Origin: Cytophaga hutchinsonii ATCC 33406
GTDB taxonomy: Bacteria > Bacteroidota > Bacteroidia > Cytophagales > Cytophagaceae
NCBI RefSeq assembly: GCF_000014145.1
Contig: NC_008255.1
Span: 1 to 64,000, forward strand
Reading direction: 5' to 3'
DNA: 64,000 bases
The position numbers were made by a program, and so were the translations under genes. Every line of letters begins with the position of its first letter. The first letter of the stretch is position 1. Under the pieces are notes generated by a model. It saw only the letters and a program-made list of their open reading frames with translations. It did not search any database and was not told where the DNA came from. Shown in pieces: positions 41,686 through 63,435 of the stretch.

Positions 41686-41835
41686 CACGTTAGATTTGAC
41701 TGTATAAAAATAATATTAAAAATTTTTGTATTTAGAAACAGGCAACGACAATACAATACACTATATATGATGTGATATTCCGGCGATAAAAATCCCAATG
41801 GAATATTTCAGCCACGGTTCAATTTTCAATAAATA

Positions 41836-41867
41836 AAAAAGGTTACTAATTGCTTAGTAACCTTTTT
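41836..41867. terminator. Hairpin abutting attL, probably the original tRNA-Asn terminator
   Basis: A hairpin (GGTTACTAA, loop TTGC, TTAGTAACC) has A-run and T-run flanks, so it works in both directions. It ends one base before the left copy of the tRNA 3' end. Before insertion this hairpin would have stood directly downstream of the minus-strand tRNA-Asn, which explains its position. Confidence 0.75.
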
Positions 41868-41879
41868 GCTCCCCCTCTT
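41868..41879. repeat. attL: left copy of the 12-bp tRNA-end repeat
   Basis: GCTCCCCCTCTT is identical to 63361-63372 and corresponds to the discriminator base, 3' acceptor strand and first T-stem bases of tRNA-Asn on the minus strand. A further TCGAACCAA occurs a few bases inside both ends at slightly different spacing (41891 and 63377), perhaps a relic of the original tRNA likeness of the att site. Confidence 0.8.
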
Positions 41880-42372
41880 ATCGAAATATCGAACCAATTC
41901 ATTAAAGATTTAGAGAAATTGTATTGGTTGTCAGTAGATTATCAATAATCTATTTATAGAATTTTACAATTCTATAAATTTTTACTGTATAAATCATTTT
42001 GATAAAAATGTCTATTGGAATAGTTTAATTTATATTACCTAAAAATGCAAAAAAGGTAATACAACCTCATTTTAATTCAATTGTTAGTAAAAGTAAAGCT
42101 GTTTTTGATTTGTTTTTCTTGGAAAAGGATAGATATTTGAAAATCAGCTAATTTTTGAATGTGTTAAAACCCCCATATTTTTTGCATTCGATTATTTAAG
42201 CACAGTATATTAATAACATGTTAACCAGTTATAGTTAATGGAATAAAATTCTTTATCCAGCAGCAGATCATGACTCGTGTTTTAAGGTCATTGCGGAAAC
42301 ATAGTAAACATTAAAATTTTCTGGAGAAGGCATTATTTAGACACAGCAATATTTTGACTTTATTTTAAAATT
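41880..42372. other. Left-end spacer with two adjacent palindromes, no gene seen
   Basis: This 493-bp A/T-rich stretch holds no credible ORF longer than about 25 codons. It contains a perfect 8-bp-arm palindrome at 41935-41952 (TAGATTAT, CA, ATAATCTA) directly joined to a 12-bp-arm hairpin at 41952-41979 (loop TTAC). They lie 56-100 bases inside attL and could be recombinase or regulator sites. In the circular form the first 23 codons here would extend the integrase. Confidence 0.5.
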
Positions 42373-44846: not shown

Positions 44847-45980
44847 ATGCCAATAGATAGAGTATCATTAGGAAATAAATTAAGTCGCTGTAGGCAAAAC
44901 CTAGATCTCGAATTGTCTGATGTGTCTAAAAAGATTGGATTGCCTTTAGAACGTTTAGATCAAATTGAGAAAGGCATTAAAGAGCCCACAGGAGATGAGA
45001 TCTTAATTTTTGCAGATTTTTATAGGCAGGATTATAAATACTTTATTAGCAATGAGAGATTATCAGCGTCTGAACAGGTTGAAATACTATATCGCAAATT
45101 TGGTGATATTTTTTCAAAAGAAGATAGGTGGGCGATCCAAGAGTTTATTTTTTTATGCGAAAATGAACAAGACATTTTAAATTATTTAGATTTTAATAAA
45201 TTAAATTTCATTGCTCCTAAGTACTCTCACGTATATAAATCACAAGGCACTGAAACTGCTGAAAAACTTAGGCATTTTTTGGGATATAAAAATGAGGAAT
45301 TGTATTCTGATTTATATTCTGAGTTTAGAAAAATTGGACTTCATGTTTTTCGAAGAAAATTAAACAATTCGCAAATATCAGGTTTGTTTATTAAACATCC
45401 CGTTGCTGGGAAATGTATTCTTGTAAATTATGATGATGATACTTACAGACAGAATTTTACTCTCTGTCATGAAGTTTGTCATGCTTTATTAGATGATGAA
45501 CATGAAATTAATATATCTTTTAAATCTGAAAATGATTATAGAGAAATTAGAGCCAATACTTTTGCAGGTAGTTTTTTGATTCCTCTGAGCTATATCGAAA
45601 AGTTTAAATTATTAACATGGACTGAGGAATTGGTATTGAAGATTGCTATACAATTAAAGGTTAATATTCAAACCTTGCTAATTGTATTGAAATCCAACAA
45701 TTGTATTAATCAAAATTTATACGATAAGTTCATTAAGCTTAAAATTTCAAGAAAGGATAAAGATGACTATGAATTGAAAGGTGTTTCACCAGCTATCCTT
45801 TCATCAAAGAAACTTTTATTGGAAAGAGGTTTATCAATGTTTTATGTTAAAAAATGCCATGAAGCATATGTAAATGGGCATATTTCATCTGGAAAGCTAG
45901 CCGCAAACCTGCTCGTTGATGAATCAGAGCTACCTTTTATTTTAGACTTGTTTAAACTGAAACTAAATTATGAACATTGA
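44847..45980 (+). CDS. XRE helix-turn-helix / ImmA-IrrE (M78) metallopeptidase
   Basis: The 377-residue protein starts with an XRE-type HTH (about 7-65: LGNKLSRCRQNLDLELSDVS) and continues with an ImmA/IrrE zinc peptidase domain with FTLCHEVCHALLDDEHEI, where HEVCH (about 208-212) is the HExxH motif. ImmA-type peptidases cut repressors and free mobile elements or stress genes. Here HTH and peptidase are one protein. It overlaps the small PIN gene by 11 bases, so the pair is probably a toxin-antitoxin or regulator-effector unit. Confidence 0.85.
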   Translation: MPIDRVSLGNKLSRCRQNLDLELSDVSKKIGLPLERLDQIEKGIKEPTGDEILIFADFYRQDYKYFISNERLSASEQVEILYRKFGDIFSKEDRWAIQEFIFLCENEQDILNYLDFNKLNFIAPKYSHVYKSQGTETAEKLRHFLGYKNEELYSDLYSEFRKIGLHVFRRKLNNSQISGLFIKHPVAGKCILVNYDDDTYRQNFTLCHEVCHALLDDEHEINISFKSENDYREIRANTFAGSFLIPLSYIEKFKLLTWTEELVLKIAIQLKVNIQTLLIVLKSNNCINQNLYDKFIKLKISRKDKDDYELKGVSPAILSSKKLLLERGLSMFYVKKCHEAYVNGHISSGKLAANLLVDESELPFILDLFKLKLNYEH

Positions 45981-46659: not shown

Positions 46660-47610
46660 GTGATCCACGCTAAAAACGTACAAGGACAAAAAATTAAAGT
46701 TTCTTTTTCAGGAGAAAAGGCAAAGTGCATTGATTGTGGACAAGATGTACGTGGACATAAAGGGAGAATGAAAATACCATACTGGCAGCATTTAAATAAA
46801 AAGGACTGCGATGCTTGGTTTGAACCAATTACCAGATGGCATATTGATTGGCAGAATAAATTTCCAAAAGAATTTCAAGAAGTAAGTTTAATAGATCCTA
46901 ACACAAAAGAATTTCATAGAGCTGATGTTAGAACAAATTCTGGATTAGTCATAGAGGTCCAACATTCTCCCATAAAACCCGATGAGATTGAGCAAAGAGA
47001 AAATTTTTATGGAAAAAATAAATTATTGTGGATTTTAAATGGTGAAAGTCTATTAAAGCATTGTAGACTAAATTATCGCTATGAAAAAAAGGAAATGTCA
47101 TTATCGTTTGAAATACCTCATTACTTAGATAAATCCCCTGAATTTAATTTTCAAGCTTTCAATGAGTATTTTTTGAAAAGTCAAGCATTAAATAAAATTA
47201 GAATCCATCCTGATTTATTAGATTTTGAAAATCAGAATGGAAATTATTTTTTATTTCATTTCAATAATAGCGTGTCATTTGAATCTATAAAATATGAACT
47301 AATTTATGATGCCAGAAAAATTTTAAATATTTTATTGAATGAAAAATTTCATGAAGATTACTTGAACGAGTTTAAAATTAATTATACAGACATACCGCAA
47401 GACAGATTTAGAAACATTAATCTTATAAAAAAATATTGGAGACCTTTTATTGATTTGATGAAACACCCTGTTTTTATTGACAATCTGGAAGGTATTGAAA
47501 CTGACAAGATATATTTTTATCAGAAAAATGAAATTATTGATAAAGATGAATTTATTAAGAATATTGAAAAAAGCTGGTTGGCTGGTTATAATAAGAAGCA
47601 TTTATTATAA
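46660..47610 (+). CDS. CoiA-like nuclease domain protein
   Basis: The 316-residue protein has a zinc-ribbon-like N-terminus (KCIDCGQDVRGHKGR, about 20-34) followed by a nuclease domain with WHIDWQNKF, HRADVRTNSGLVIEVQHSPI (about 88-107). The D...ExQ pattern is the PD-(D/E)XK core of the CoiA family, first known from competence. There are no other competence genes here, so a defence or DNA-processing role in this operon is more likely (inference). The start is GTG 46660. It precedes the MBL gene by 27 bases and may start the long operon to 56270. Confidence 0.7.
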   Translation: MIHAKNVQGQKIKVSFSGEKAKCIDCGQDVRGHKGRMKIPYWQHLNKKDCDAWFEPITRWHIDWQNKFPKEFQEVSLIDPNTKEFHRADVRTNSGLVIEVQHSPIKPDEIEQRENFYGKNKLLWILNGESLLKHCRLNYRYEKKEMSLSFEIPHYLDKSPEFNFQAFNEYFLKSQALNKIRIHPDLLDFENQNGNYFLFHFNNSVSFESIKYELIYDARKILNILLNEKFHEDYLNEFKINYTDIPQDRFRNINLIKKYWRPFIDLMKHPVFIDNLEGIETDKIYFYQKNEIIDKDEFIKNIEKSWLAGYNKKHLL

Positions 47611-47637: not shown

Positions 47638-48705
47638 ATGAAGATAAAATTTTTAAAAGCATTCAATGGTGATTCCATTTTAATTTCGTTTGCAGAAGAT
47701 GGCAAATCAAGAAACATTCTAATTGACGGAGGGATGCCAGCAACTTACGTTCGGAAAGGTAAAAATGGAAAACCCGAATATGGAGAACTCAAATCCACTA
47801 TTGACGCAATTCGAGAACGTGATGAAAAAATTGATCTTCTTATTCTTACTCATGTTGATAATGATCATATTGGAGGTTTGTTAAAATGGTTTGAAAAAGA
47901 CCAGGATGCTTATAAACTAATCGGACGAATTTGGTTTAACTCAGGCAAGCTTATTTCGGAATTTTTTAACCAAAAAGAAAATGAAGAAAATTTTGTAAAG
48001 ATAAACCCAGATGAAAGTACTCTAACTAGTATTAGAGGAGGAGTGACGTTTGAGGATTACATTGAGACGAGGGGAATTTGGGATAGAAGAATAGTAATTG
48101 CTTTAGAATATTTTGAGTATTTAGGTATTAATTTTAAAATTTTATCACCAAGTTCAGACAAATTAAAATTATTACTTGGTAAATGGGAGAAAGAAGCTCC
48201 TAAGTCTTTATACACGTCACCCGAAAAAAATGACTATGAACTTACACTTAACCAACATATTGAAAATGATAAATTCGAGGAAGATACCACTATTCACAAT
48301 GGTAGTTCAATTGCTTTTATAATAACATTCGAAAATAAAAACTTTGTTTTTTTAGCTGACGCACATCCTACAATTGTAGCTAACTCATTAAAAGAACTAG
48401 GATATTCAAACGAAAAACCATTAAAAGCTGAATTGGTTAAAATTTCGCATCATGGCAGTAAGGCAAATAATAGTATTGAAATGCTAAAATTAATTACAAC
48501 TAATAAGTATTTAATTAGCACCAATGGTGACAAAGATGCTCATCCGAATAAACAGTTGCTAGCAAGGCTTGCTTCGATAAATGATAGTTGTGAAGTGTAT
48601 TTTAATTATCCTGGACAAATCGAAAAAATATTCAAGCCTGAAGATCGAGCAGATTTTCCTAATTTTAAACCAGTTAACATGGAAGATAACGAATTTACAT
48701 TTTAA
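47638..48705 (+). CDS. Metallo-beta-lactamase-fold hydrolase (ComEC-type), part of ABC-3C-like system
   Basis: The 355-residue protein has the MBL metal site LTHVDNDHIGG (HxDxDH, about 71-76), with IDGG upstream, FLADAH (about 240-245) and ISHHGSKANN (about 269-278) further on. ComEC/Rec2-like MBL proteins act as nucleases or phosphodiesterases, so nucleic acid cleavage is the likely effector activity. No signal peptide or membrane span is seen, unlike ComEC. Only four bases separate its stop from the protease gene. MBL plus trypsin-like protease also occurs in type 1 Avs systems. Confidence 0.8.
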   Translation: MKIKFLKAFNGDSILISFAEDGKSRNILIDGGMPATYVRKGKNGKPEYGELKSTIDAIRERDEKIDLLILTHVDNDHIGGLLKWFEKDQDAYKLIGRIWFNSGKLISEFFNQKENEENFVKINPDESTLTSIRGGVTFEDYIETRGIWDRRIVIALEYFEYLGINFKILSPSSDKLKLLLGKWEKEAPKSLYTSPEKNDYELTLNQHIENDKFEEDTTIHNGSSIAFIITFENKNFVFLADAHPTIVANSLKELGYSNEKPLKAELVKISHHGSKANNSIEMLKLITTNKYLISTNGDKDAHPNKQLLARLASINDSCEVYFNYPGQIEKIFKPEDRADFPNFKPVNMEDNEFTF

Positions 48706-48709
48706 ATAA

Positions 48710-49999
48710 ATGGCGAGACTAGATTTATTACCCAAATATATAGTAAGGGTCGAAGGAGCTAGTGGCTGCTTGTTCCAGCCAATAAATGATGAATATAGCT
48801 GCGTTCTAACAGCAAAGCATGTTATTGATGGTAATAATTCACCATCAATAATCCGCCAGGCTTTTGATGAAAATGGTGCGTTAGTAAATGAAACATTAGA
48901 AATTATTGGGACTCCATTTTTACATTCTAACGAACACAAGGATGCCGCAATTATAAAGATTAAGAAAGTAGAAGGAATTGATTCTTTACTACGAGACGAT
49001 TTATCATCTGAAAACAGAGATGGATATTATTTGTGTGGACATCCAGAGTCTAGAAGAACTCAAAATGATAGTTTTAGACTTGATGAAATTAGCATTCTAC
49101 AACCCAAGGAAAATAATTATAGAGAAGCTAAAAGTAAACAACCTATTATTTATAATGAGGTAACTGGACAATCTGGAGGGGGTATTTTAAAAACACATGA
49201 ATCTTGCATTTTGATTTCAGGTATCCAATCAAGAATGGTAGCAGAAGATGAAAGAGAAACATTGGGAAGATTAGCATTAATGCCTTTATCATTCTTTGAT
49301 GAAATCGTAGAGCAAAATCCAAAAGAATTATCTGCATTATTTCCGCCATACATTGCTTCATTCAAAAGATTAGTTGATGAAATATTCCCGCTTTCAGGAA
49401 TTCAGGTTGCTGATCAGAAAAAAAAATTAATTCAAAATGAATTAAAGGTAATTGCAAAAAATCTTTGTGATGATTTTACTCCTCAATTATTAATTGATTT
49501 GTATAAAGATTCTTTACTTGTTTCTGGAACAGATAAAAGTGTAATTAATCATAGTGAGTTATGGGTTTCATTTTTAGAATTACTTTCAATAAATCAATTA
49601 CATAGTGAGCAAAAAATTACATTAGATTTATTAAAGCAAATTCATAAATCTAAAAAATTATACTTTACAGATTCGAAAGAATGGATTTCCAAATTAGAAG
49701 ACATATATAGGTCTGATTTATCGGAAATAGAAAAAGGAGGTCTTGTTGTTGTTGGTTCTACAATCGACAAAAAACCTACAACAGTAGAAATTGATAAAGG
49801 GTATATAGGTAATATTTGTACAGTTCCAAGTAGTGAAATGAATATTAGTAATACTGTCAGCGACCCTTTTAATGATTTATCGATAGTTCATATTTACAAA
49901 TTTCAAAAGCATGTAATTGATAATTATAAAGCATTTACCTCAATCACATCAGCCAATTCACTTAAAACAATAAAAGAAGTTACAAATGGAGTTATTTAG
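48710..49999 (+). CDS. Trypsin-like serine protease with C-terminal domain, ABC-3C-like effector
   Basis: Residues about 1-200 of this 429-residue protein form a chymotrypsin-fold protease with a complete triad: H37 in LTAKHVIDG, D78 in HKDAAIIKI and S155 in TGQSGGGIL. There is no signal peptide, so it should act inside the cell. The remaining 230 residues are a separate helical-to-mixed domain, probably the part that docks with the middle component. It overlaps the middle component gene by 14 bases. A cytoplasmic protease coupled to an ATPase sensor suggests activation on phage infection. Substrate unknown. Confidence 0.82.
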   Translation: MARLDLLPKYIVRVEGASGCLFQPINDEYSCVLTAKHVIDGNNSPSIIRQAFDENGALVNETLEIIGTPFLHSNEHKDAAIIKIKKVEGIDSLLRDDLSSENRDGYYLCGHPESRRTQNDSFRLDEISILQPKENNYREAKSKQPIIYNEVTGQSGGGILKTHESCILISGIQSRMVAEDERETLGRLALMPLSFFDEIVEQNPKELSALFPPYIASFKRLVDEIFPLSGIQVADQKKKLIQNELKVIAKNLCDDFTPQLLIDLYKDSLLVSGTDKSVINHSELWVSFLELLSINQLHSEQKITLDLLKQIHKSKKLYFTDSKEWISKLEDIYRSDLSEIEKGGLVVVGSTIDKKPTTVEIDKGYIGNICTVPSSEMNISNTVSDPFNDLSIVHIYKFQKHVIDNYKAFTSITSANSLKTIKEVTNGVI

Positions 50000-50528
50000 C
50001 GAAATAGAAGATGTAATAGTAGAAGAAATAAAAAAAGTCTTTGAATTGGATTATTTTTCAATTGGTACAGTTCAATTTGGAGGGATTATAATTGTTTGCA
50101 TGGTTAAATTCAAAGATGAAACTAAATTAAATAGCCAATGGAAAGAATTCAACAGCTACTTAACAGCTAAATTCATACCTACAGTAAAAGATGATTATTC
50201 AAAATGGAATTTTTATGTATTTTATTTTTCAAATAATATAGTTAATAAGTCCCTGAAATATGAAATTGAAAATAACAAATTTAGCAGTAGGAAAATTGTA
50301 ATTGATAATTGCGAATCAATTACTGCAACAGAAATAAATAATGTGATATCAGAACACATTACAAACGACAAAATTCAAATTAATGTTGAAAATAAAGAAA
50401 TATCAACATTTAACAAGAATGCTTCTCTAGCAAATATTTTAGATAAGTTAAGCTTAAGTAAAAAAAATGATGAAGATATGCAAAATGCATTGGGTCAAAT
50501 AGAAAATATTTTTAAAGATGAAATTTAA
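49986..50528 (+). CDS. Small adaptor protein, probable ABC-3C middle component
   Basis: The 180-residue protein is not recognisable by motif. It has an alpha/beta pattern (IGTVQFGGIIIVCMVKF; DYSKWNFYVFYFSNNIV) and an acidic C-terminal helix. Its size and its position between an effector and a Rad50-like ATPase, overlapping both genes (14 bases upstream, 11 bases downstream), match the 'middle component' of ABC three-component systems, which is thought to bridge ATPase and effector. The call rests on context. Confidence 0.6.
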   Translation: MELFSEIEDVIVEEIKKVFELDYFSIGTVQFGGIIIVCMVKFKDETKLNSQWKEFNSYLTAKFIPTVKDDYSKWNFYVFYFSNNIVNKSLKYEIENNKFSSRKIVIDNCESITATEINNVISEHITNDKIQINVENKEISTFNKNASLANILDKLSLSKKNDEDMQNALGQIENIFKDEI

Positions 50529-53500
50529 AAAAGTTGAAATACAAGCATTTCGTGCATACGATAAAGTACATGATGGAACATTTGATTTTACCCGTGAAGA
50601 TGGTAAGAATGCTGATTTTATTTCATTATACGCTCCTAATGGATTTGGTAAAACATCGTTTTATGATGCAGTTGAATATGGTATAACAAATAACATTGAT
50701 CGTTTCTTAAGAAAAGGAAACGGAAAAGATACATTTAATTCCGTTAAGTCTGAAAGAAGCATTAGGTCAAATAATAAGAGACAATATTTTTTAAGAAATA
50801 ATAATTCAGATGATGATCTTCCATCATTTATAAAATTATACACTGTAGCTGAAGCATATCCAATTGAAACTAACATAGAGAAACCTAAAAGTAAAGCAGG
50901 TTATGATTACAAATTTGATCCAAGCGCAACTATAAATAAAGAATTTAAAACAGTCATTTTATCACAGGAATGGATTGATGCTTTTTTAAAAGAAGATAAA
51001 CCAGAAGATAGATATGAGAGATTTATCGAATATTTTGGAGATAAAAATATTGATGAATATTATAATAAATTAATAAGCCTAATTGCTTTAAATAATAAGA
51101 ATATAGAAGCGCTTACGAAAGTGTTAAGCGGTATACAACTAGAGTTAAAGTTTGGGGGAGACAAAGATATTCTCAAAAAGGTGAATGAAACAATTATTTC
51201 ACTTAACAAAGTAGGGGAAAATTTAAAAGAGATTGATGAATCTTATTCAGAAACTGACGCTCTTAATCTTTCAAATAAAATATCCGAAAGAAAAGTTGAT
51301 TTAGATTTTGAAATCAAAAAGGCAACCGAACACATGAAGTACTTAGATATTTTCTATGTAGGCAATGAAGAGGTTGCAGGACTGGCTAAATATTTTGAAT
51401 CAAAAATAAAAATTGAGCAAGTTGATAATCAATACAAAGAAAATCTCTCTATTCTTGAAAAATTTGATAAAAAACAAAAATGCGTTAACGAAATTGATTC
51501 GATTAAATCACAAAACAATGAAATAGGAACTAAAAAACAAAATCTTGAATCATTACAAAAAGACTTAAAAGAGTATGAAAAAATTGCTCAAGAAATTGCA
51601 TCTGGAAAAGAAAAAAGTGAATTATTAAAAAAAGAATTATCAGCCCTAACGCTAAATATAGATGCCCTTAATGAAAAGGAAAGCGAAAATAGATCCAAAC
51701 AAAGTTCTTTACAAAATCAAATTTTAGAGTTAGAAAAAAGTATTTCAGAAATTCCAAAACTTTCAGAAGACTATAATAATTATAATCTAAAACTTAAAGA
51801 ATCTCAAACAAAACTTGATAAAGTTGAACCTGAAATCAAAAGTTTAGAACAAAAGAAAAGTTTATTAGAAATATCAATAAATAATTTACAGAAATCTATT
51901 CAAGAGATAAATGCTGGTACATATCCATCTATTTCGGATGAATTGTATTCTAACAATGCGGAAATCATTGAGGCACTTATCGGAATTGAAAAGTCAATAA
52001 CTATAGAACATGAAAATCTACATGCAATTAATTCTAATATACAAACAAGCGAAAATTTTAAAAAAGAAATTGAACAGTTCATTTCAAAGGGATCTGAAAT
52101 AGTACATAAAAGTCAAACCAGCTCTTGCCCATTATGTGAGCAACAATATGAATCTTTTAGTGTATTAGCTTCGAAAATATCTAATAACAGCCTCCTGTCA
52201 AATATTCTTTCTGGCTTATTAAAGGATAGAGATGATAAAAACAAGAATATTGCTCAGTTGAATGAGTCATTAAAATCGAATAGGCAACAGCTCGTGGCCG
52301 AAATCACTAAGAAACTAGAAGAAACAGAAATAGAACGTGCAAAATTATTAGAAAATTTTAAAAAATATATTGATTTTAAATCCGAAATTATCAAAGAAAT
52401 AGAATTATATAATAAACCTCTGAATGACCTAGATTTAAAATTAAATGAAAAGACGTTTGAAGTTTTCGAAAAAGAATCCAAAGATACTCTAGAAGAGCTA
52501 AAATCAGAATTGACTTCATGCATCAGAAGAGATGAAGAATTAAAAAAATCTGTTATTGACGAATCATTAAATTTAGATATTAAAAAAATTAAATCTTCCC
52601 ACAATTTAACGAAACTAGATAGGCTTAGTAAAGAACCTATTTATTTAAAGATCGTTGAGTATTTTAAAATAAATTATCCTGAAGCAATAATCGCCGATAA
52701 ACCATTATCTGACGAAATAATATTGATAACACATAATTTAGAATCGAATGTTGACAGAGAAATAAAGTTGAACGAAGAAATTGCAGATCTCAATATTATA
52801 CTAAAAGCATTTACAGTTGAGGGTGTTCAAAAAAACAATGAACTAATAAGCGAAACCAAAAATATATACGTTAAAATAATAAATTCATTTGAGCAAGAAG
52901 TTCGATCAAAGTTGAATATTGAATTAAATGGGCACACAATTGATTCATTTTCTAATTTTTTAGATAGTAATAAAAACAACAGTAAGGATAAAATTGTCAA
53001 ACATGAATTGATAATAAAAGACTATGATCTACTATCTCAATTCAAAGAAAACGTTACTCCATTTTTGAAATACGAGAAAGCGAAAGTTAAAGAGAAGGAT
53101 ACTAAAGATAGAATTCAGTTTTTAAAAACTAAAATATCTAGTGAATTAGAAAAGGAATTGCAAAATGTGTCTGAATATTTGACTCAACAAATAGATTCAT
53201 TCTTTTATGAAGGCTTGATAAATGAATTGTACAGAAAAATAGATCCACATCCTGATTATAAGACAGTAACCTTTAGATGTGATTTTTCGGACACAAAGCC
53301 AAAATTGAATGTTTGTGTTTATCAGGAAAATGAAGATGAGTTAATAATTCCAAATCTTTACTTTAGTACCGCGCAATTAAATATATTAAGTTTAAGTATA
53401 TTTTTGGCAAAGGCATTAAATGCTAAAGATGATAAGGGAAAACCATTTGACTGCATTTTTATTGATGATCCAATTCAATCAATGGATAGCATCAACATTC

Positions 53501-53673
53501 TTTCTACAATCGACTTAATAAGAAGTATTGTTGTAAACCATAAAAAACAAATAATACTTTCTACGCATGACGAAAATTTTCATAATCTTTTGAAGAAAAA
53601 AATGCCAACAAATTTATTCAATTCTAAATTTATGGAACTTGAAAGTTTTGGTAAGGTAAAAAATGATATTTAA
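50518..53673 (+). CDS. Rad50/SMC-like ABC ATPase with zinc hook, sensor of ABC-3C-like system
   Basis: The 1051-residue protein has ABC ATPase halves at both ends and a long coiled coil between. Walker A is APNGFGKTSF (about 38-47), the Q-loop lies in VILSQEWIDAF (about 146-156), signature-like FSTAQLNILSLS (about 948-959), Walker B FIDDPIQSMD (about 980-989) and the H-loop LSTHDENF (about 1014-1021). A CPLC (about 537-540) midway in the coil is a Rad50-type zinc hook for dimerising. The signature reads STAQ instead of SGGQ. It probably senses DNA or nucleoprotein and licenses the effectors. Confidence 0.85.
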   Translation: MKFKKVEIQAFRAYDKVHDGTFDFTREDGKNADFISLYAPNGFGKTSFYDAVEYGITNNIDRFLRKGNGKDTFNSVKSERSIRSNNKRQYFLRNNNSDDDLPSFIKLYTVAEAYPIETNIEKPKSKAGYDYKFDPSATINKEFKTVILSQEWIDAFLKEDKPEDRYERFIEYFGDKNIDEYYNKLISLIALNNKNIEALTKVLSGIQLELKFGGDKDILKKVNETIISLNKVGENLKEIDESYSETDALNLSNKISERKVDLDFEIKKATEHMKYLDIFYVGNEEVAGLAKYFESKIKIEQVDNQYKENLSILEKFDKKQKCVNEIDSIKSQNNEIGTKKQNLESLQKDLKEYEKIAQEIASGKEKSELLKKELSALTLNIDALNEKESENRSKQSSLQNQILELEKSISEIPKLSEDYNNYNLKLKESQTKLDKVEPEIKSLEQKKSLLEISINNLQKSIQEINAGTYPSISDELYSNNAEIIEALIGIEKSITIEHENLHAINSNIQTSENFKKEIEQFISKGSEIVHKSQTSSCPLCEQQYESFSVLASKISNNSLLSNILSGLLKDRDDKNKNIAQLNESLKSNRQQLVAEITKKLEETEIERAKLLENFKKYIDFKSEIIKEIELYNKPLNDLDLKLNEKTFEVFEKESKDTLEELKSELTSCIRRDEELKKSVIDESLNLDIKKIKSSHNLTKLDRLSKEPIYLKIVEYFKINYPEAIIADKPLSDEIILITHNLESNVDREIKLNEEIADLNIILKAFTVEGVQKNNELISETKNIYVKIINSFEQEVRSKLNIELNGHTIDSFSNFLDSNKNNSKDKIVKHELIIKDYDLLSQFKENVTPFLKYEKAKVKEKDTKDRIQFLKTKISSELEKELQNVSEYLTQQIDSFFYEGLINELYRKIDPHPDYKTVTFRCDFSDTKPKLNVCVYQENEDELIIPNLYFSTAQLNILSLSIFLAKALNAKDDKGKPFDCIFIDDPIQSMDSINILSTIDLIRSIVVNHKKQIILSTHDENFHNLLKKKMPTNLFNSKFMELESFGKVKNDI

Positions 53674-53688
53674 TACGTAATAAACAAT

Positions 53689-54609
53689 ATGGAATATATT
53701 TCTACCTCAGCACTTGCAAATGAGATTGATATCAATGCTAGTGAATTATTTGAAAAACTAAAGTCACTTGGATGGATAGAAAGAAAAAACGACAAGTGGA
53801 TACTTACTAATCTTGGCGAACAAAAAGGCGGACAAACAAGAAGTAATCCTAAATTCGGAGAATATATCGTTTGGCCAGAAAATATTTCTATCAGCAATGG
53901 AGAACAAAAGGATAAAGCAAAACTTATTAACGCAACAGCAATTGGGAAGCACTTTTCTATTTCATCCCAAAGACTTAATCTGATTCTCTCAGAATTAGGT
54001 TTGATAGAAAAAGATATTGCAGCAGGCTGGGAAATAACTAAACTTGGGAAAAGTATTGGTGGTAGACAGTTTGAGCATGAAACATCAGGAGCTAATTATG
54101 TATTATGGCCTGAAGGTATTTTGCAATACAAAAGGCTTTTAGAAGTATTTAAAGAAAGTTTGCCAGAACAACCAATACTTCAAAAGGAAATTCATATCTC
54201 AACTTCACAAATCGAAACACCAACTATCAATAAAGATAATTTTAGAGAAAAGTTTGAAGCGAAGCATCGAACTATTGACGGGCATTATGTTCGAAGTAAA
54301 GCTGAAATGTTAATTGATAATTGGCTTTACCAATATGGACTTATTCATGCTTATGAAAGAAAGCTTCCAATAGATGAAGATGTTTATTGCGACTTTTATA
54401 TCCCTTCAGGTAACGGTAGGCCGCAGGCTGTTTATATAGAATTTTGGGGGCTTGAGAATGATCCAAAGTATACTGCTCGTAAAAACAAAAAAATAGAAAT
54501 ATATAAAAAAGAAGGCCTTTCGCTAATAGAATTAACTGACGCTGATTTACAAAATATAGACGATATTTTGGCGAAAAAACTTAGACAATTCAAAGTGCCA
54601 ATTGGGTAG
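53689..54609 (+). CDS. Tandem winged-helix DNA-binding protein with Vsr-like PD-(D/E)XK nuclease
   Basis: The 306-residue protein has two related segments (about 3-66 and 80-144), each a short helical wHTH ending in a 'G-x-Y-x-x-WPE-x-I' signature (GEYIVWPENI; ANYVLWPEGI), a clear internal duplication. A Vsr-like nuclease follows (about 190-300) with catalytic-type E206 in SKAEMLID, D about 234 in CDFYIP and E about 250 in YIEFWGL. It should bind and cut DNA. It comes 15 bases after the ATPase gene and may be a fifth component of that operon or a separate restriction gene. Confidence 0.68.
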   Translation: MEYISTSALANEIDINASELFEKLKSLGWIERKNDKWILTNLGEQKGGQTRSNPKFGEYIVWPENISISNGEQKDKAKLINATAIGKHFSISSQRLNLILSELGLIEKDIAAGWEITKLGKSIGGRQFEHETSGANYVLWPEGILQYKRLLEVFKESLPEQPILQKEIHISTSQIETPTINKDNFREKFEAKHRTIDGHYVRSKAEMLIDNWLYQYGLIHAYERKLPIDEDVYCDFYIPSGNGRPQAVYIEFWGLENDPKYTARKNKKIEIYKKEGLSLIELTDADLQNIDDILAKKLRQFKVPIG

Positions 54610-54626
54610 AAATATAAATTTACCAA

Positions 54627-55631
54627 GTGAATTTGAAAATCGATAAGACAATGGATCGTAAAAAAAAGCATGGAAGTTTTATATTGACGAACGAGTTTAC
54701 ATTGGAAGAATTTCTTGCAGTAGCTCTTTTGCCAAACTCTGAAAAGGAATATTATCCAGTTAGTCACTTCCCAACCGATAAACATTTGGAAGATTATTTG
54801 GCAACCATTGAGTCAAGATCAGAAAAAGAAGTTCGGGATTTATTAAGACATTTTTTACCTAAGAATTCAACTTACGGAAAGGATAACTATTACCGTAAGT
54901 ATTATATTCAGCGAGAGGAAAGTGAATCAATAACTTTAGAACAGCAAGTGGAAACAAACAATTATAGAATTGAAGATACCGAATATTATAGGCGGCTAAT
55001 TTTTTCTATATTTCCCCATGAACATGTTTGGGAGGGTTTGACTTGGACTTTAGACCTTTTACCGCATTCACCCAATGAAGCAATTAGAGTAATAGACGCT
55101 TATTTTTTAGCTAACTGTCAATTTTTACCAGACGATTTAATGACTGGAATCAGTGACTGTACTACTATTCTAAGGGCTAGGTATTTTGATAAGGAACATC
55201 CAAGAGAAATTTTTTTAAATCTGTTGCCTAAAGAGTTTGAGCAATTAGTTGCAGGACTGTATTCTGAGATGAAGTACTTAACCAGGCTAACTAAAACTAC
55301 ACGAGATGGAGGTGTTGATATTTTTGCTTCTAAAGATGAGCCTGGTAAGAAAGAGAAACTCGTAATTCAATGCAAACGTTACACTCCAAAGATTACCTTA
55401 GACGAAGTTAAAGTATTGCATTCAACGACTTTGAGTACTAAATCTACTAAAGGCGTATTTGTTACAAGTTCTGAATATACTAGAGATGCAAAAAAGTTTT
55501 CCGAGGATAATCCTTCAGTTGAACTAATAGACTATAAACAATTAATTAAACTTTTGAACAAACATTATGGCCCATATTGGACAAGCAAAATTAGCCGTAT
55601 TCTTAACAATCAAAAAATCAGAATTAAATAA
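54627..55631 (+). CDS. Mrr-type restriction endonuclease
   Basis: The C-terminal half of this 334-residue protein is an Mrr catalytic domain: LPKEFEQLVAGLYSEM (about 205-220), TTRDGGVDIFAS (about 224-235) with the metal-binding aspartate, then VIQCKRYTPK (about 246-255) and GVFVTSSEYT. These form the PD-(D/Q)XK site that cuts DNA, often modified DNA. The N-terminal half is unrecognised and may be the specificity part. Start is GTG 54627 or ATG 54651, 17 bases after the Vsr-like nuclease gene. No methyltransferase is present, in keeping with a modification-dependent enzyme. Confidence 0.78.
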   Translation: MNLKIDKTMDRKKKHGSFILTNEFTLEEFLAVALLPNSEKEYYPVSHFPTDKHLEDYLATIESRSEKEVRDLLRHFLPKNSTYGKDNYYRKYYIQREESESITLEQQVETNNYRIEDTEYYRRLIFSIFPHEHVWEGLTWTLDLLPHSPNEAIRVIDAYFLANCQFLPDDLMTGISDCTTILRARYFDKEHPREIFLNLLPKEFEQLVAGLYSEMKYLTRLTKTTRDGGVDIFASKDEPGKKEKLVIQCKRYTPKITLDEVKVLHSTTLSTKSTKGVFVTSSEYTRDAKKFSEDNPSVELIDYKQLIKLLNKHYGPYWTSKISRILNNQKIRIK

Positions 55632-58527: not shown

Positions 58528-60120
58528 TCAATATATGCTTATAGCAGATGTTTCTGAAGTATTTCCCGAAAGAGCAACATTTACGCCTTCTTTATTAATT
58601 TCCGAAATGATTGTTGCCTGCACTTCCTTTTGTAAATCCTCTGAAGAAAGAATAGAATCATGTATACTAACAAAAACCTCTTTAGGATATTTTTCTGTTA
58701 AAATACCAAGTACTCTTCTAGTGATTATATCCGTTTCCAGGATCTGCATTCGTTTAGCTAAGGTTGCATGATTTTCTTTTTTTATGTCACAAAGAATTGA
58801 ATATACATTCGGGAATTCGCTTACAAACAGTTGCAGCAGCGGTGTTTTCCTGATCATCCAGCCTCTGGGAATTTTACAGTAGAAGATATAATGGAAGAAA
58901 TCAGTTTTAAATGTTTTTCTCAGATCTTCATTTTTTGGATCAAGGTTCATTTTCAACATCAAGTAATCATAGATCATACCTTCTTCACATAGATTAATAT
59001 AGCTGGAAACATCAGGCGATGAATCAATATCAATTCCTTTATCTCTTAACTCCTGCATCAATACAATAGCAAACAGTAACGGTTGACTATTCTTGATATC
59101 TGATTCTTTCAATAACTTTCCATTTACCATTAATCCTTTTTTGATTTCTTTTCTAAGAGAGCTGATATTGTGGAATATCCTGGTTTCTCTTTCTTTAAAG
59201 AAGTAATCTTGTTGTTCAATTTTCTGGATAGAAAGCATGTCTGATTTAAACTGATTCCAGGTGTATTTTATTTCTTCCTTATCTGTAAGGTCAATCTGAT
59301 AAAGGGAAAGATTCTTTTCAACCTGGGATAAAGCTGTACCCACATAAGAATACAAATAAGAGGAAGTAGAAGAAGATAAGAAATAAGAAGATGATCTAGT
59401 ATATTTATAAACAGAACACTTTTTAAACTCTATATTAGCTGTATCCACATAAGAATATACAGTAGAAGGATAGTAGTAGTTAGAACAATAAGGAGTAGGA
59501 TAATAAATAACTAAAGAAGAAAGATCATCTGAAAGAATATACTCTGGATAAGAGAAATCCCAGCAAGATGTATCTATAAGAGATATGTCGTATGATGATG
59601 CTATTTTGCTCTTACTGGTTAAAACCTGATTTACTATGTCTAATTCCAACTTGAATAATAGATTATATAAATGAGTTAATAGCTTATCTTTAGTAGAATA
59701 GTAATTAAGTCTCATCTTGTTTGAGAACTTTGTATCATCGCTCATGATTTGCCTGAAGATTTCATTTCTATATTTTTCGGTTAGTCTATAACCATAACAT
59801 TTGCCATTGCCTTTATTTTTTCCTGTATGGTGGTGGTAGATTCCGTCACATTCAATGATGCCAAGTTCAGTAGTGAGAATATTAAGTATAGGTTTAACAT
59901 ATCTCTTGCCAAGAATCTTACGGAGCATCTTAGATGACAATGGTATAAATGAATCTTTGCCGAGTGATTTATCCAGGAACCTGGAAACATACAATTCATG
60001 TATAATATACAAGAACTTGTCGATGTGGTGGGAGATCATTTCTTCCCGACCAATAGAAGTAAGTACCATTGGGAAACTGCAAAGGGAAGAGGGGATATAG
60101 AAGTATACCGCTTTTTTCAT
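58528..60120 (-). CDS. Large basic protein, possible replication or partition protein
   Basis: The 530-residue protein is not recognised by motif. Residues about 40-130 look like a winged helix (SSKMLRKILGKRYVKPILNI, TTELGIIECDGIYHH, YGYRLTEKY), and a helical N-to-C layout without catalytic motifs follows. A Ser/Tyr-rich, low-complexity middle (about 195-270) contains repeated YSYVGTA / YSYVDTA. Immediately upstream are two direct and one inverted copy of an 11-bp repeat, the arrangement expected of iterons bound by a Rep protein. The call of replication initiator is inference from this context; a DNA-binding regulator is an alternative. Confidence 0.5.
   Translation of the reverse strand: MKKAVYFYIPSSLCSFPMVLTSIGREEMISHHIDKFLYIIHELYVSRFLDKSLGKDSFIPLSSKMLRKILGKRYVKPILNILTTELGIIECDGIYHHHTGKNKGNGKCYGYRLTEKYRNEIFRQIMSDDTKFSNKMRLNYYSTKDKLLTHLYNLLFKLELDIVNQVLTSKSKIASSYDISLIDTSCWDFSYPEYILSDDLSSLVIYYPTPYCSNYYYPSTVYSYVDTANIEFKKCSVYKYTRSSSYFLSSSTSSYLYSYVGTALSQVEKNLSLYQIDLTDKEEIKYTWNQFKSDMLSIQKIEQQDYFFKERETRIFHNISSLRKEIKKGLMVNGKLLKESDIKNSQPLLFAIVLMQELRDKGIDIDSSPDVSSYINLCEEGMIYDYLMLKMNLDPKNEDLRKTFKTDFFHYIFYCKIPRGWMIRKTPLLQLFVSEFPNVYSILCDIKKENHATLAKRMQILETDIITRRVLGILTEKYPKEVFVSIHDSILSSEDLQKEVQATIISEINKEGVNVALSGNTSETSAISIY
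59327..59354. repeat. Repeat copy A inside the 530-residue gene
   Basis: These 28 bases are identical to 60294-60321 upstream of the gene, and a diverged form stands at 59436-59460. On the gene's strand copy A encodes YSYVGTALS. Confidence 0.75.
59436..59460. repeat. Repeat copy B inside the 530-residue gene
   Basis: A diverged copy of the same element (AGCTGTATCCACATAAGAAT core, one change from copies A and C), encoding YSYVDTA on the minus strand. It is followed by GTAGAAGGA as in copy C. Confidence 0.6.
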
Positions 60121-60524: not shown

Positions 60525-61148
60525 ATGAAGACAAAAGTAATATGTCTGGTTCGTGTGAGTACACAAGACCAGGATTACCAAAGACAGATTTCTGATTTGA
60601 CAAAATACAGTCAGGCCAGAGATTTTGTAATTGTAGATTTTATCTCTGAAAAAGTTTCAGGCACAAAACGAAATGAAGAACGAAACGGGATTCAAGAACT
60701 TTTAAAAAGGGCCAGAAAGAAAGAATTTCAAAAAGTAATTGTTCAGGAGATTTCAAGGTTAGGAAGAAATCCATTTCAGGTTCAACGTGTGATTGAAGAA
60801 TTGGCAGAGCTTTCTATTTCAGTTGTGGTTCAAAACATGAACCTTGAGACTTTGGATGAAGGTGGAAATAGAAACGGATTTATAGATTTGATGCTAAGCA
60901 CAGCAGTTCATTTTAGTTCAATTGAGAGAAGTTGGATTGTAAATCGAATTCGTTCAGGACAAAAGAACAGTAAGAAAAAAATTGGACGTCCATTCAATAC
61001 ATTTGAGAGTAAGGAAGCTGTATTGAAAAAATATGCAGCAGTTGTAAGAGATTTGAAAAGTGGAATCTCAATAAGAAAGGTGGCAAAGTTGAATGATTTA
61101 TCAACTCCAACTATTCAACGAGTAAAAAAGCTGATGCAGGAATTGTAG
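60525..61148 (+). CDS. Small serine recombinase (resolvase/invertase)
   Basis: The 207-residue protein has the catalytic serine S12 in CLVRVSTQDQDYQRQ, the arginine region EISRLGRNPFQVQRV (about 75-89), ERSWIVNRIRSGQ (about 134-146) and a C-terminal HTH (KSGISIRKVAKLNDLSTPTI). Length is that of resolvases and DNA invertases. It may resolve multimers, invert DNA or help the large recombinase as a directionality aid; the sequence alone cannot say. It is followed by a 555-bp spacer. Confidence 0.88.
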   Translation: MKTKVICLVRVSTQDQDYQRQISDLTKYSQARDFVIVDFISEKVSGTKRNEERNGIQELLKRARKKEFQKVIVQEISRLGRNPFQVQRVIEELAELSISVVVQNMNLETLDEGGNRNGFIDLMLSTAVHFSSIERSWIVNRIRSGQKNSKKKIGRPFNTFESKEAVLKKYAAVVRDLKSGISIRKVAKLNDLSTPTIQRVKKLMQEL

Positions 61149-61703: not shown

Positions 61704-61841
61704 ATGGTAACAGTAAGTATGTGTAGGAAGAAATTGAAAGGAGATAAGAACTTTTCTGATGAACAGGTTTTGCAACTAATATCTTTTTTATATCATCTAG
61801 CTCAATTGGAGTTGGATGAATTTTATTTCAAGAGTCACTAA
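61704..61841 (+). CDS. Small 45-residue protein upstream of the integrase
   Basis: ATG 61704 to TAA 61839-61841 encodes 45 residues, with FSDEQVLQLISFLYHLAQLE as an amphipathic helix pair and a basic start (CRKKLKGDK). It overlaps the longer frame of the integrase gene and ends 13 bases before the chosen integrase ATG, so they may be co-translated. Small helical proteins of this pattern are, as I recall, common beside recombinases in Bacteroidota elements; function unknown, perhaps a directionality or regulatory factor. Confidence 0.6.
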   Translation: MVTVSMCRKKLKGDKNFSDEQVLQLISFLYHLAQLELDEFYFKSH

Positions 61842-61854
61842 AAAAAACACATAT

Positions 61855-63396
61855 ATGAAAAAAGCGGTAATTTATTCTCGGGTATCAACTGATGAGCAGG
61901 CACAATTAGGTTACAGTCTAAGGGATCAGGAACGATGTTTAAGATTATTTTGTGAGAAAAATGACTTAGAAGTTGTGCATCATTATCAAGACGATCATAG
62001 TGCAAAGGATTTTAATAGACCACAGTTTCAGCAATTCTTAAGAGATGTAAAAAGTAAAAGAATCAAGGTTGACTATTTTGTTTGCCTGAAACAGGATCGG
62101 TTTTCAAGAGATACAAGATTAGCATTGAATTCAGTTCATGATCTAGAGAAACTTGGTGTGACAGTTAAATATGTAGAAAATAATTTAGACCTTTCAATTG
62201 CAGAAAACATTATACCTTACTTGCTAAATTTTGGAATAGCTGAATTGGAGAATAAAAGGTTAAGCGAAAGAACAAAGAAGGGTATGCGCCAAGCTAAACG
62301 TGAAGGGCGTTGGGTTGGTACACCCCCAAGAGGTTACAAATCTATACCCGATTCTACAGGAAAAAAAATATTGACACCGAATCAATATTCAACGTTAATT
62401 ATAGAAGCATTTACAGAGTTTGCTCAAGGGAATCATTCTACAGAATCATTAAGGAAGGTCTTATATGCACGTGGTCTAAAAGTATCAGAGAATCAATTTC
62501 CAAATATCCTTAAAAATCCTATTTATTGTGGGAAGATAAGAATCGATGAGTGGAAAGAAGAGAAAGAAGAAATTGTCATCGGAATTCATGAGCCTTTGAT
62601 AAGTGTGGAGCTATTCGAAAAAGTACAGCGTATATTAAACGGAACTTCTACACCTAACAAACCTCATAAAAAACTTGATCCTGAACTTCCATTGCGGCCC
62701 TTTTTAAAATGCAGTTGTGGCAGTAATTTGACAGGGAGTAGGTCAAGGAGTAGAAATGGCAATTATCATTATTACTACCACTGCCAAAATGGTTGTTCTG
62801 TAAGATTTCCTGCTAAGGTTGCAAATAAAAAATTCGAAACGTTTCTTTCAATGTTTTCTTTTTCTGAAGATGTTATTCTTTTGTATAAAGAAGTATTAAA
62901 AGACGAATTCTCAAAACAAGTAAAAGAAAGGTTGGAATTGAGTGCAGCTGATGCGGCACTCAAATTAAAAACCCAAAATCTTCTTGATAATGCAGATGAA
63001 AAATATATCGCGAATGAGCTTGATAATACCACTTATCAAAGAGTAAAAGAAAAGTATCAGAAAATACTGGATACAATTACAAATAAAGAGCTCGATTCTA
63101 AAGTTGTTAAGTCTGAATTTGAAAAATATTTAAAAGGAGTAACCCTCTTGGATTCATTAGATGTTAAGTATAAAGAAGGAACGATAGAGTTTAAAAACGC
63201 TCTTCTTGGTTCGATATTCATGGGCAAATTAGAATTTTCCGAAAACGAGTATCGAACCACTCAAATTAATAGTGTTGTCGAAAATTTGCTTTTGAATTTC
63301 AATGAATTAGCAAGCTATAAAAAAGAAAAAGCCACTACGAATAGTGGCTTTTTACAGCAGGCTCCCCCTCTTGGGCTCGAACCAAGGACCCCATGA
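61855..63396 (+). CDS. Large serine recombinase (site-specific integrase)
   Basis: From ATG 61855 (MKKAVIYSRVSTDEQAQLGY) the protein has 513 residues: a resolvase catalytic domain with nucleophile S11 and QDRFSRDTRLAL, a recombinase domain (KRLSERTKKGMRQAKREGRW, RGYKSI), a zinc ribbon (LKCSCGSNL ... YHCQNGCSVRF) and a coiled coil. ATG 61816 is an earlier but less likely start. The last 12 codons read through the right att repeat and the antisense of tRNA-Asn, ending at TGA 63394-63396. A terminator hairpin lies inside the frame before that stop. It probably inserted the element. Confidence 0.9.
   Translation: MKKAVIYSRVSTDEQAQLGYSLRDQERCLRLFCEKNDLEVVHHYQDDHSAKDFNRPQFQQFLRDVKSKRIKVDYFVCLKQDRFSRDTRLALNSVHDLEKLGVTVKYVENNLDLSIAENIIPYLLNFGIAELENKRLSERTKKGMRQAKREGRWVGTPPRGYKSIPDSTGKKILTPNQYSTLIIEAFTEFAQGNHSTESLRKVLYARGLKVSENQFPNILKNPIYCGKIRIDEWKEEKEEIVIGIHEPLISVELFEKVQRILNGTSTPNKPHKKLDPELPLRPFLKCSCGSNLTGSRSRSRNGNYHYYYHCQNGCSVRFPAKVANKKFETFLSMFSFSEDVILLYKEVLKDEFSKQVKERLELSAADAALKLKTQNLLDNADEKYIANELDNTTYQRVKEKYQKILDTITNKELDSKVVKSEFEKYLKGVTLLDSLDVKYKEGTIEFKNALLGSIFMGKLEFSENEYRTTQINSVVENLLLNFNELASYKKEKATTNSGFLQQAPPLGLEPRTP
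63326..63353 (+). terminator. Intrinsic terminator inside the integrase frame
   Basis: A stem of 12 bp (AAAAAGCCACTA, loop CGAA, TAGTGGCTTTTT) has A and T flanks, so it can act in both directions. It stands eight bases before attR, inside the integrase reading frame, and replaces the original terminator that stayed at the left end (41836-41867) for tRNA-Asn. Confidence 0.75.
63361..63372. repeat. attR: right copy of the 12-bp tRNA-end repeat
   Basis: GCTCCCCCTCTT is identical to the left copy at 41868-41879. Bases 63362-63372 are the 3' end of the intact tRNA-Asn gene, so integration keeps the tRNA functional. Confidence 0.8.
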
Positions 63397-63435
63397 TTAA
63401 CAGTCATGTGCTCTAACCAGCTGAGCTAAGGAGGA
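63362..63435 (-). tRNA. tRNA-Asn (GTT anticodon)
   Basis: The 74-base gene folds into a standard cloverleaf: acceptor TCCTCCT with AGGGGGA, D-stem GCTC/GAGC, anticodon stem CATGA/TCATG with loop CTGTTAA (anticodon GTT), T-stem CTTGG/CCAAG with loop TTCGAGC, discriminator G. CCA is not encoded. Upstream on the minus strand a TAATATTG box, one base off the -7 consensus, with GTTG about 22 bases before it, may be the promoter. The 3' end is the integration site of the element. Confidence 0.95.

Follow-up and report, generated by a model that had tools for sequence, protein, structure and literature searches.

An attachment site inside a serine integrase gene of Bacteroidota tRNA islands and the likely loss of a conserved C-terminal tail on integration

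Phage Mx8 encodes a tyrosine recombinase that targets a tRNA gene. According to the accessible part of one report, its attP is situated within the coding part of int, and on integration the gene acquires a new 3' end, which alters the specificity of Int without inactivating it (PMC6070905). Suicidal integrases of the SSV type likewise have their site within the integrase gene, which is broken upon integration; these split enzymes are called exclusively archaeal in the excerpted source (PMC8371274). In mycobacteriophage BPs, the available sections of PMC4557955 place attP inside a gene whose C-terminus is shortened by integration, such that prophage and viral forms differ. Islands of the Islander set carry an intact tRNA at one end, a tRNA 3' fragment at the other and an integrase inside (PMC4383910, in extract), and a Riemerella island at a tRNA-Arg gene carries a tyrosine integrase (PMC6764341, in extract). 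In the open-licence literature searched, neither an attP inside the gene nor tRNA targeting is described for serine integrases, nor is the family reported here; the accessible portions of the Integrase-On-Demand paper (PMC12884075), a review of IMEs (PMC5704250) and the Riemerella report (PMC6764341) hold no counter-example. The one-directionality of serine integrases is a central question, both for biology and for genome-engineering tools.

We analyzed a 64,000-nt stretch of Cytophaga hutchinsonii ATCC 33406 (NC_008255.1, positions 1 to 64,000, forward strand; hereafter the window). It contains a 21.5-kb island within a tRNA-Asn gene, with the integrase (Int) gene at the right end. The relevant features are as follows.

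41835 to 41867, minus strand: putative original terminator of the tRNA, displaced to the left end by integration (-15.6 kcal/mol, z -5.33; same place as the terminator of the empty site in locus L252).
41868 to 41879, plus strand: attL core, identical to 63361-63372; probable crossover dinucleotide GC at 41868-41869, placed from relatives.
41868 to 41948, plus strand: separated 3' end of int at the left island end, with 26 codons starting at the core (APPLIEISNQFIKDLEKLYWLSVDYQ) plus stop; conserved in 19 elements, with signs of selection as protein.
61704 to 61841, plus strand: family-conserved ORF of 45 aa immediately ahead of int.
61855 to 63396, plus strand: integrated form of int, a large serine recombinase of 513 aa (PF00239 and PF07508; serine integrases in the PDB by sequence).
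63320 to 63353, minus strand: hairpin within the reading frame of int, flanked by A and T tracts, putative replacement terminator of tRNA-Asn (fold z, polarity and covariation).
63360 to 63435, minus strand: tRNA-Asn (GTT), the integration target (ARAGORN; empty site in L252).
63361 to 63372, plus strand: attR core, the last codons common to both Int forms (APPL); probable crossover GC at 63361-63362.
63373 to 63396, plus strand: C-terminus of the integrated form, codons GLEPRTP plus stop, antisense from tRNA-Asn; variable in relatives.

The organization is that of a tRNA-gene genomic island, with an intact tRNA at one end, a tRNA 3' fragment at the other and an empty site in a relative. This empty site, in a genome of the same genus (L252), consists of the peptidase gene, the terminator and tRNA-Asn, with no insert. 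Within the window, the 12-bp core GCTCCCCCTCTT occurs on the plus strand only at 41868-41879 and 63361-63372 and does not occur on the minus strand. A second locus of the genus (L251, genome G002, about 883-1600, minus orientation) has a tRNA-Asn 3' fragment and several hundred bases between the peptidase gene and the intact tRNA. The fragment adjoins a terminator identical in sequence to the displaced one of the window, and the intervening DNA may stem from an insertion at this site that is small or has decayed.

The ORF at 61855-63396 matches PF00239 (3.5e-27) followed by PF07508 (1.7e-11), the domain order of large serine recombinases. The A118 and TP901-1 integrases are among its PDB sequence matches, and the best Foldseek match is a serine integrase complex (E value of 1.8e-19), with low TM-scores of 0.2 to 0.4 for this multi-domain protein. 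Across 56 sequences, R9, V10, S11, R82, F83, S84, R85, C286 and C311 are invariant. We take the Ser and Arg residues to be catalytic and the cysteines to form the zinc ribbon, and presume that the long helices of the predicted model (residues 339-386 and 392-435) are the coiled coil. The start of int was set at 61855, because relatives begin with the same MKxAxIYxRVS and position 61816 falls within the small upstream ORF. From there, the frame stays open across the hairpin (63331-63348) and the core (63361-63372) into tRNA-Asn, where it ends in QQAPPLGLEPRTP and a TGA stop. When the island ends are joined at the core, the same frame reads QQAPPL-IEISNQFIKDLEKLYWLSVDYQ up to a stop at 41946-41948; judged from the sequence, this stranded 3' end (41868-41948) is joined to int only in the circle. 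Both courses of the frame had been predicted originally, namely across attR to an end antisense in tRNA-Asn and, in the circle, into the left end up to a TAA at 41946-41948. The frame reading, the ARAGORN tRNA call and the joined ends bear them out. The exchanged C-terminus comes after the catalytic and DNA-binding domains, both of which remain in the integrated ORF.

A search of 148 relatives gave 41 matches at E values up to 0.001, many of them in the catalytic domain only. Because eight of the ten best matches listed reach position 500 or beyond only in part, the loci themselves were inspected. The best 80 of 555 relatives were taken from a scan of species genomes, and a viral scan added three close ones. 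The resulting set holds 90 Int sequences, defined as ORFs over 400 aa and including the window; it leaves out L038 and L089 (duplicates of L002 and L004) as well as L006, L011 and L061 (broken or short ORFs). Near-copies are present among the loci (L071-L073 with L076; L054, L059, L062, L084 and L112). In 79 of the 90, the T-loop of an antisense tRNA lies exactly 124 nt past the same Arg codon, window included. An antisense tRNA was called near the ORF end in 73, with the T-loop exactly at 124 nt in 68 of these; 11 sequences without a called tRNA but with a T-loop at 124 nt were added by hand and then verified. The 73 called tRNAs comprise 19 anticodons, from Asn, Arg, Leu, Met, Glu, Lys, Pro, Gln, His and Ala tRNAs. 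The other 11 sequences include L078 (anchored at 114 nt in this count, its own reference placing the T-loop at 124), four with shifted spacing (L012, L044, L093 and L098), two at contig ends (L009 and L096), two with a different C-terminus (L005 and L110) and two with a full tail and no tRNA (L040 and L048).

At most two of the 90 end before the hairpin, namely L005 and L110, whose C-terminus differs and whose inspected sequence shows no att hairpin. The objection raised along with the original prediction, that related recombinases might stop ahead of the hairpin, therefore applies to these two at most and not to the other relatives. L093, L098, L012 and L106 terminate just inside the tRNA. 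The observation made in the window is thus correct and is a family-wide property. The family profile is matched at E values up to 1e-30 by 130 of 395 sampled genomes of the class. An antisense tRNA at the ORF end is also found in 4 of 73 more distant viral large serine recombinase (LSR) ORFs, in mixed frames, versus 72 of 89 in the family (window left out); the overlap alone is therefore not unique to the family. The distant phage LSRs with this overlap are on viral contigs (L121, L123, L128 and L136). A second LSR of the genome to which the window belongs (L299, 1555-3210), 25% identical, ends in tRNA-Leu(CAA) in the GxEP frame (VPRVGIEP...). Close relatives were not found among phages and plasmids: 751 phage and 2,663 plasmid records match, all below 60% identity, and the best among the matches listed come from other phyla.

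Reading the left ends in frame through the core revealed a conserved tail, [QE][FIL]S[NK].[FL]..DL..[LI], shared by 19 elements, of which two are weaker. For this comparison, upstream DNA was obtained for 33 relatives and lengthened for 11. A profile of the residues after the core gives 18 tail sites, window included, each of which shares 4 to 13 nt with the end of its own tRNA, starting at the crossover dinucleotide. A further site, 76 kb upstream in L051, scores 15.4 with a core of 4 nt. Tail sites are present in 17 of the 33 elements with at least 28 kb of upstream DNA (window included, L089 left out); among the 48 for which the upstream DNA spans at most about 10 kb, two have such a site, L059 and L101. 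The profile search found no site in the other 16 of the 33, which have 28 to 90 kb upstream; these may be larger islands, run into contig ends, have lost the tail or have none. The profile was trained on the sites that it finds. When each element and its close copies were removed in turn, 17 of the 18 sites still ranked first in their own upstream DNA, and that of L068 ranked sixth. Plus- and minus-strand hits number 18 and 0 at a score of 18, 18 and 1 at 16, and 20 and 5 at 14. Since the best minus-strand control hit reaches 16.4, above the score of L051, the tail of this element rests on its 4-nt core. A scan for exact cores recovered the sites of the window and L100 and missed most others.

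Mean pairwise identity of the tails at codon positions 1, 2 and 3 equals 0.57, 0.76 and 0.43 for codons 5 to 18, and 0.48, 0.66 and 0.38 for codons 11 to 18. Single-base codon differences comprise 300 synonymous and 458 nonsynonymous ones, a ratio of 0.66 versus 0.24 for random changes, counted in related sequences whose pairs are non-independent. The codon-position pattern and the synonymous excess point to selection on the tail as a protein, which indicates that the segment lost on integration is kept by selection on its amino acid sequence. From the crossover codon, the tail measures 21 to 42 residues in 18 elements; the C-terminus of the integrated state ranges from 11 to at least 100 residues across relatives. 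The GxEP tail of the integrated form was also considered as a selected peptide and rejected, given this spread in length and a frame that is set by the crossover at the tRNA end. Because the integrated C-terminus is so variable, integration looks like the loss of a tail rather than the gain of a second functional one. A chance open frame was rejected in view of the conserved tail and the 124-nt spacing in 79 of 90 sequences.

Four uninterrupted Int-plus-tail ORFs were found in public genomes (L040, L048, G219 and G399). G399 has a tandem array at tRNA-Met, in which the uninterrupted ORF is the distal copy and the proximal copy ends in the tRNA; in G219, another Int of the family lies 52 kb downstream on the same strand, as in a tandem. 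Together with the conservation of the tail at the left end, such ORFs suggest that the circle encodes a full-length Int. The originally predicted difference of the recombinase gene between the two states is supported, the circular tail being a C-terminus conserved in 19 elements, with conservation that follows codon phase. L067, L068 and L070 carry upstream remnants in which an Int end runs into a tail. More than one tail site precedes a single Int in the L071, L075, G399 and G211 regions, reflecting either remnants or islands in tandem at a single tRNA. The tail resembles a short helix: it opens with S-N, and its hydrophobic residues recur at intervals of 4 and 3. In the predicted model of L040, the tail region (residues 481-526) has a low mean pLDDT of 39-54, with only two alignment rows carrying the tail.

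The stretch common to both ends begins with GT in 17 relatives, antisense of the tRNA 3' end, and this GT sits in the Val codon that precedes both tails; the window has GC (Ala). The crossover is probably this dinucleotide at the tRNA 3' end, and we infer that the longer repeat beyond it reflects similar half-sites. A crossover anywhere within the 12-bp repeat was rejected, as the 17 relatives always share just GT and two or more following bases. If recombination always takes place at the end of the tRNA, the integrated tail falls into the GxEP frame automatically.

The hairpin inside the int frame has a z of -4.65 on the tRNA strand; on the int strand it folds at -15.2 kcal/mol and is followed by five T. 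In the window it is bidirectional, with U-tracts both ways. Polarity and covariation were assessed in the 79 sequences chosen for their T-loop at 124 nt. At least five A in the 8 nt 5' of the hairpin, a U-tract toward the tRNA, occur in 69 of them, versus at least five T in the 8 nt 3' of it, in the int direction, in four, the window among them. The A-tract is absent in 10 of 79 according to the hairpin finder, which took an inner stem in some. The hairpin center is nearly fixed (within two positions in 76/79), and none of 395 codon-shuffled sequences reach the real median stem score. Among 62 non-redundant sequences, 85% of the 11 stem positions pair, compared with 54% after codon shuffling, and the stem covaries, with G-C, A-T, C-G and T-A swapping for one another. 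In view of its polarity and covariation, the best reading of the hairpin is as a terminator that replaces the tRNA's own. A stable hairpin with a U-tract toward the tRNA, as in an intrinsic terminator, is seen in 69 of 79 sequences and in the fold of the window. The best explanation is that the island would have displaced the tRNA terminator by about 21 kb and provides, antisense to int codons, a substitute for it. A terminator hairpin inside the frame had been predicted originally; the hairpin is indeed there, and its U-tract points toward the tRNA in most members and toward int in few. As a terminator of the int mRNA it was marked down on that count.

In 76 of the 83 loci examined, int is preceded by a small ORF; a single profile, constructed from 21 of these ORFs, matches 68 of the 76. 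The 45-aa ORF of the window (61704-61841) has no Pfam match above the cut-off; it is a candidate directionality factor or regulator, and a candidate partner of Int. Four genes at 47638-53673 (plus strand) match the PADLOC models LmuA (hydrolase and protease types), LmuC and LmuB and may form a Lamassu-like defense system aboard the island. Further matches, to RmrA-like, CoiA nuclease, PDC-S69 and Mrr restriction models, lie at 44847-45980, 46660-47610 and 53689-55631, so that the island looks like a carrier of defense cargo. Near the integrase end are a 530-aa ORF without a Pfam or NCBIfam match (58528-60120, minus strand) and a small serine resolvase (60525-61148, plus strand; PF00239), whose best NCBIfam match, the Mpi invertase model, is below the cut-off.

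Taken as a whole, these data are best explained, with good though not full confidence, by an attP inside int, a conserved tail that is exchanged for tRNA-antisense codons and a replacement terminator. The large serine recombinase would insert the island at the 3' end of the tRNA gene by means of an attP inside int itself, about 20 to 40 codons ahead of the true stop. In the circle, int would continue through the hairpin and attP into the conserved, probably helical tail, making a full-length enzyme possible. Integration would cut int at the tRNA end and move the tail codons to the far end of the island; their replacement would be the antisense of the tRNA T-arm (GxEP...), which bears no sign of selection as protein. 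On the other strand, the same int 3' codons would provide a terminator substituting for the tRNA's own, now at the far end.

What the exchange does is a more tentative matter. Control of direction or stability, as originally proposed, is plausible. In a circle that has just arrived, the tail could favor attP x attB integration or stabilize the enzyme, and its loss could help to hold the element in place until aided excision, a role to which we give somewhat less than an even chance. The same guarded estimate applies to a one-shot switch, in which full-length Int made from the circle integrates the element, and integration, by removing the tail, disables or redirects the enzyme. Close to an even chance, if just short of it, is compaction without control: the tail would be part of the working Int, which is dispensable after integration, so that its truncation regulates nothing. 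The same sequence facts fit this explanation, as does the varying length of the integrated tail. Against it, the elements must excise at some time, and the position of attP inside the gene is fixed across 19 anticodons, which invites a role; neither point is decisive.

Other explanations are far less probable. If the circular tail were a degradation tag, Int would be short-lived in the circle and stabilized by integration; the precedent is BPs, where attP lies in the repressor gene and the longer viral form has a C-terminal tag, according to the accessible part of PMC4557955. The conserved residues, however, are internal to the tail, and the tail varies both in its final residues and in its length (21 to 42 residues), unlike an end tag, leaving this idea unlikely. 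Slightly less likely again is that the hairpin terminates the int mRNA in frame, yielding a non-stop mRNA and a protein without either tail: the five T and the fold of the window hairpin on the int side would allow it, but a T-tract on that side is found in only 4 of 79 sequences, versus 69 of 79 on the tRNA side, and the tail beyond is conserved. Least probable of all, the conservation after the core might be that of attP half-site DNA bound by Int, with the peptide as a by-product. Several elements do share DNA words in the first codons after the core, such as TCGAACCATTTT; yet conservation tracks codon phase there and further out, synonymous differences are enriched, and the frames stay open for 20 or more codons.

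Under the preferred reading, an attP inside int with exchange of a conserved tail, nature would offer one enzyme in two forms, each tied to a state of the DNA and distinguished from the other by a short tail only, making the role of the tail directly testable. Conserved genes would join the range of serine-integrase sites, given the apparent use of 19 tRNA anticodons. Where recombinases are annotated with GFEPATSS- or GLEPRTP-like ends, they become explicable as integrated forms read into tRNA genes, the true int gene ends then lying tens of kilobases away. The hairpin suggests a way for an island to repair the termination of the tRNA that it occupies. If true, some 100 bp would serve as protein code, attachment site and tRNA terminator in a widespread Bacteroidota family.

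Compared with known systems, the Int of the window is like those of phiC31, Bxb1, A118 and TP901-1 in its large-serine-integrase domain order and fold, as judged from Foldseek and sequence matches. To our knowledge, none of these four has an attP in its own coding sequence or targets tRNA genes. The island resembles those of Islander, as far as the extract goes, in its intact tRNA, opposite 3' fragment and internal integrase; the Islander set has a tyrosine integrase, whereas the window Int is a serine recombinase. SSV-type enzymes, from the excerpts, are tyrosine recombinases whose catalytic part is separated, whereas the window Int exchanges a short C-terminal tail and keeps its catalytic domain whole. 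Unlike the window element, BPs alters its repressor and not its integrase, in the sections at hand. In the available text on these systems, the nearest precedent is phage Mx8, with which the window Int shares an attP within the reading frame and a new 3' end after integration. Unlike Mx8, the window Int belongs to a serine recombinase family that targets 19 anticodons and carries, antisense in the same codons, a putative tRNA terminator.
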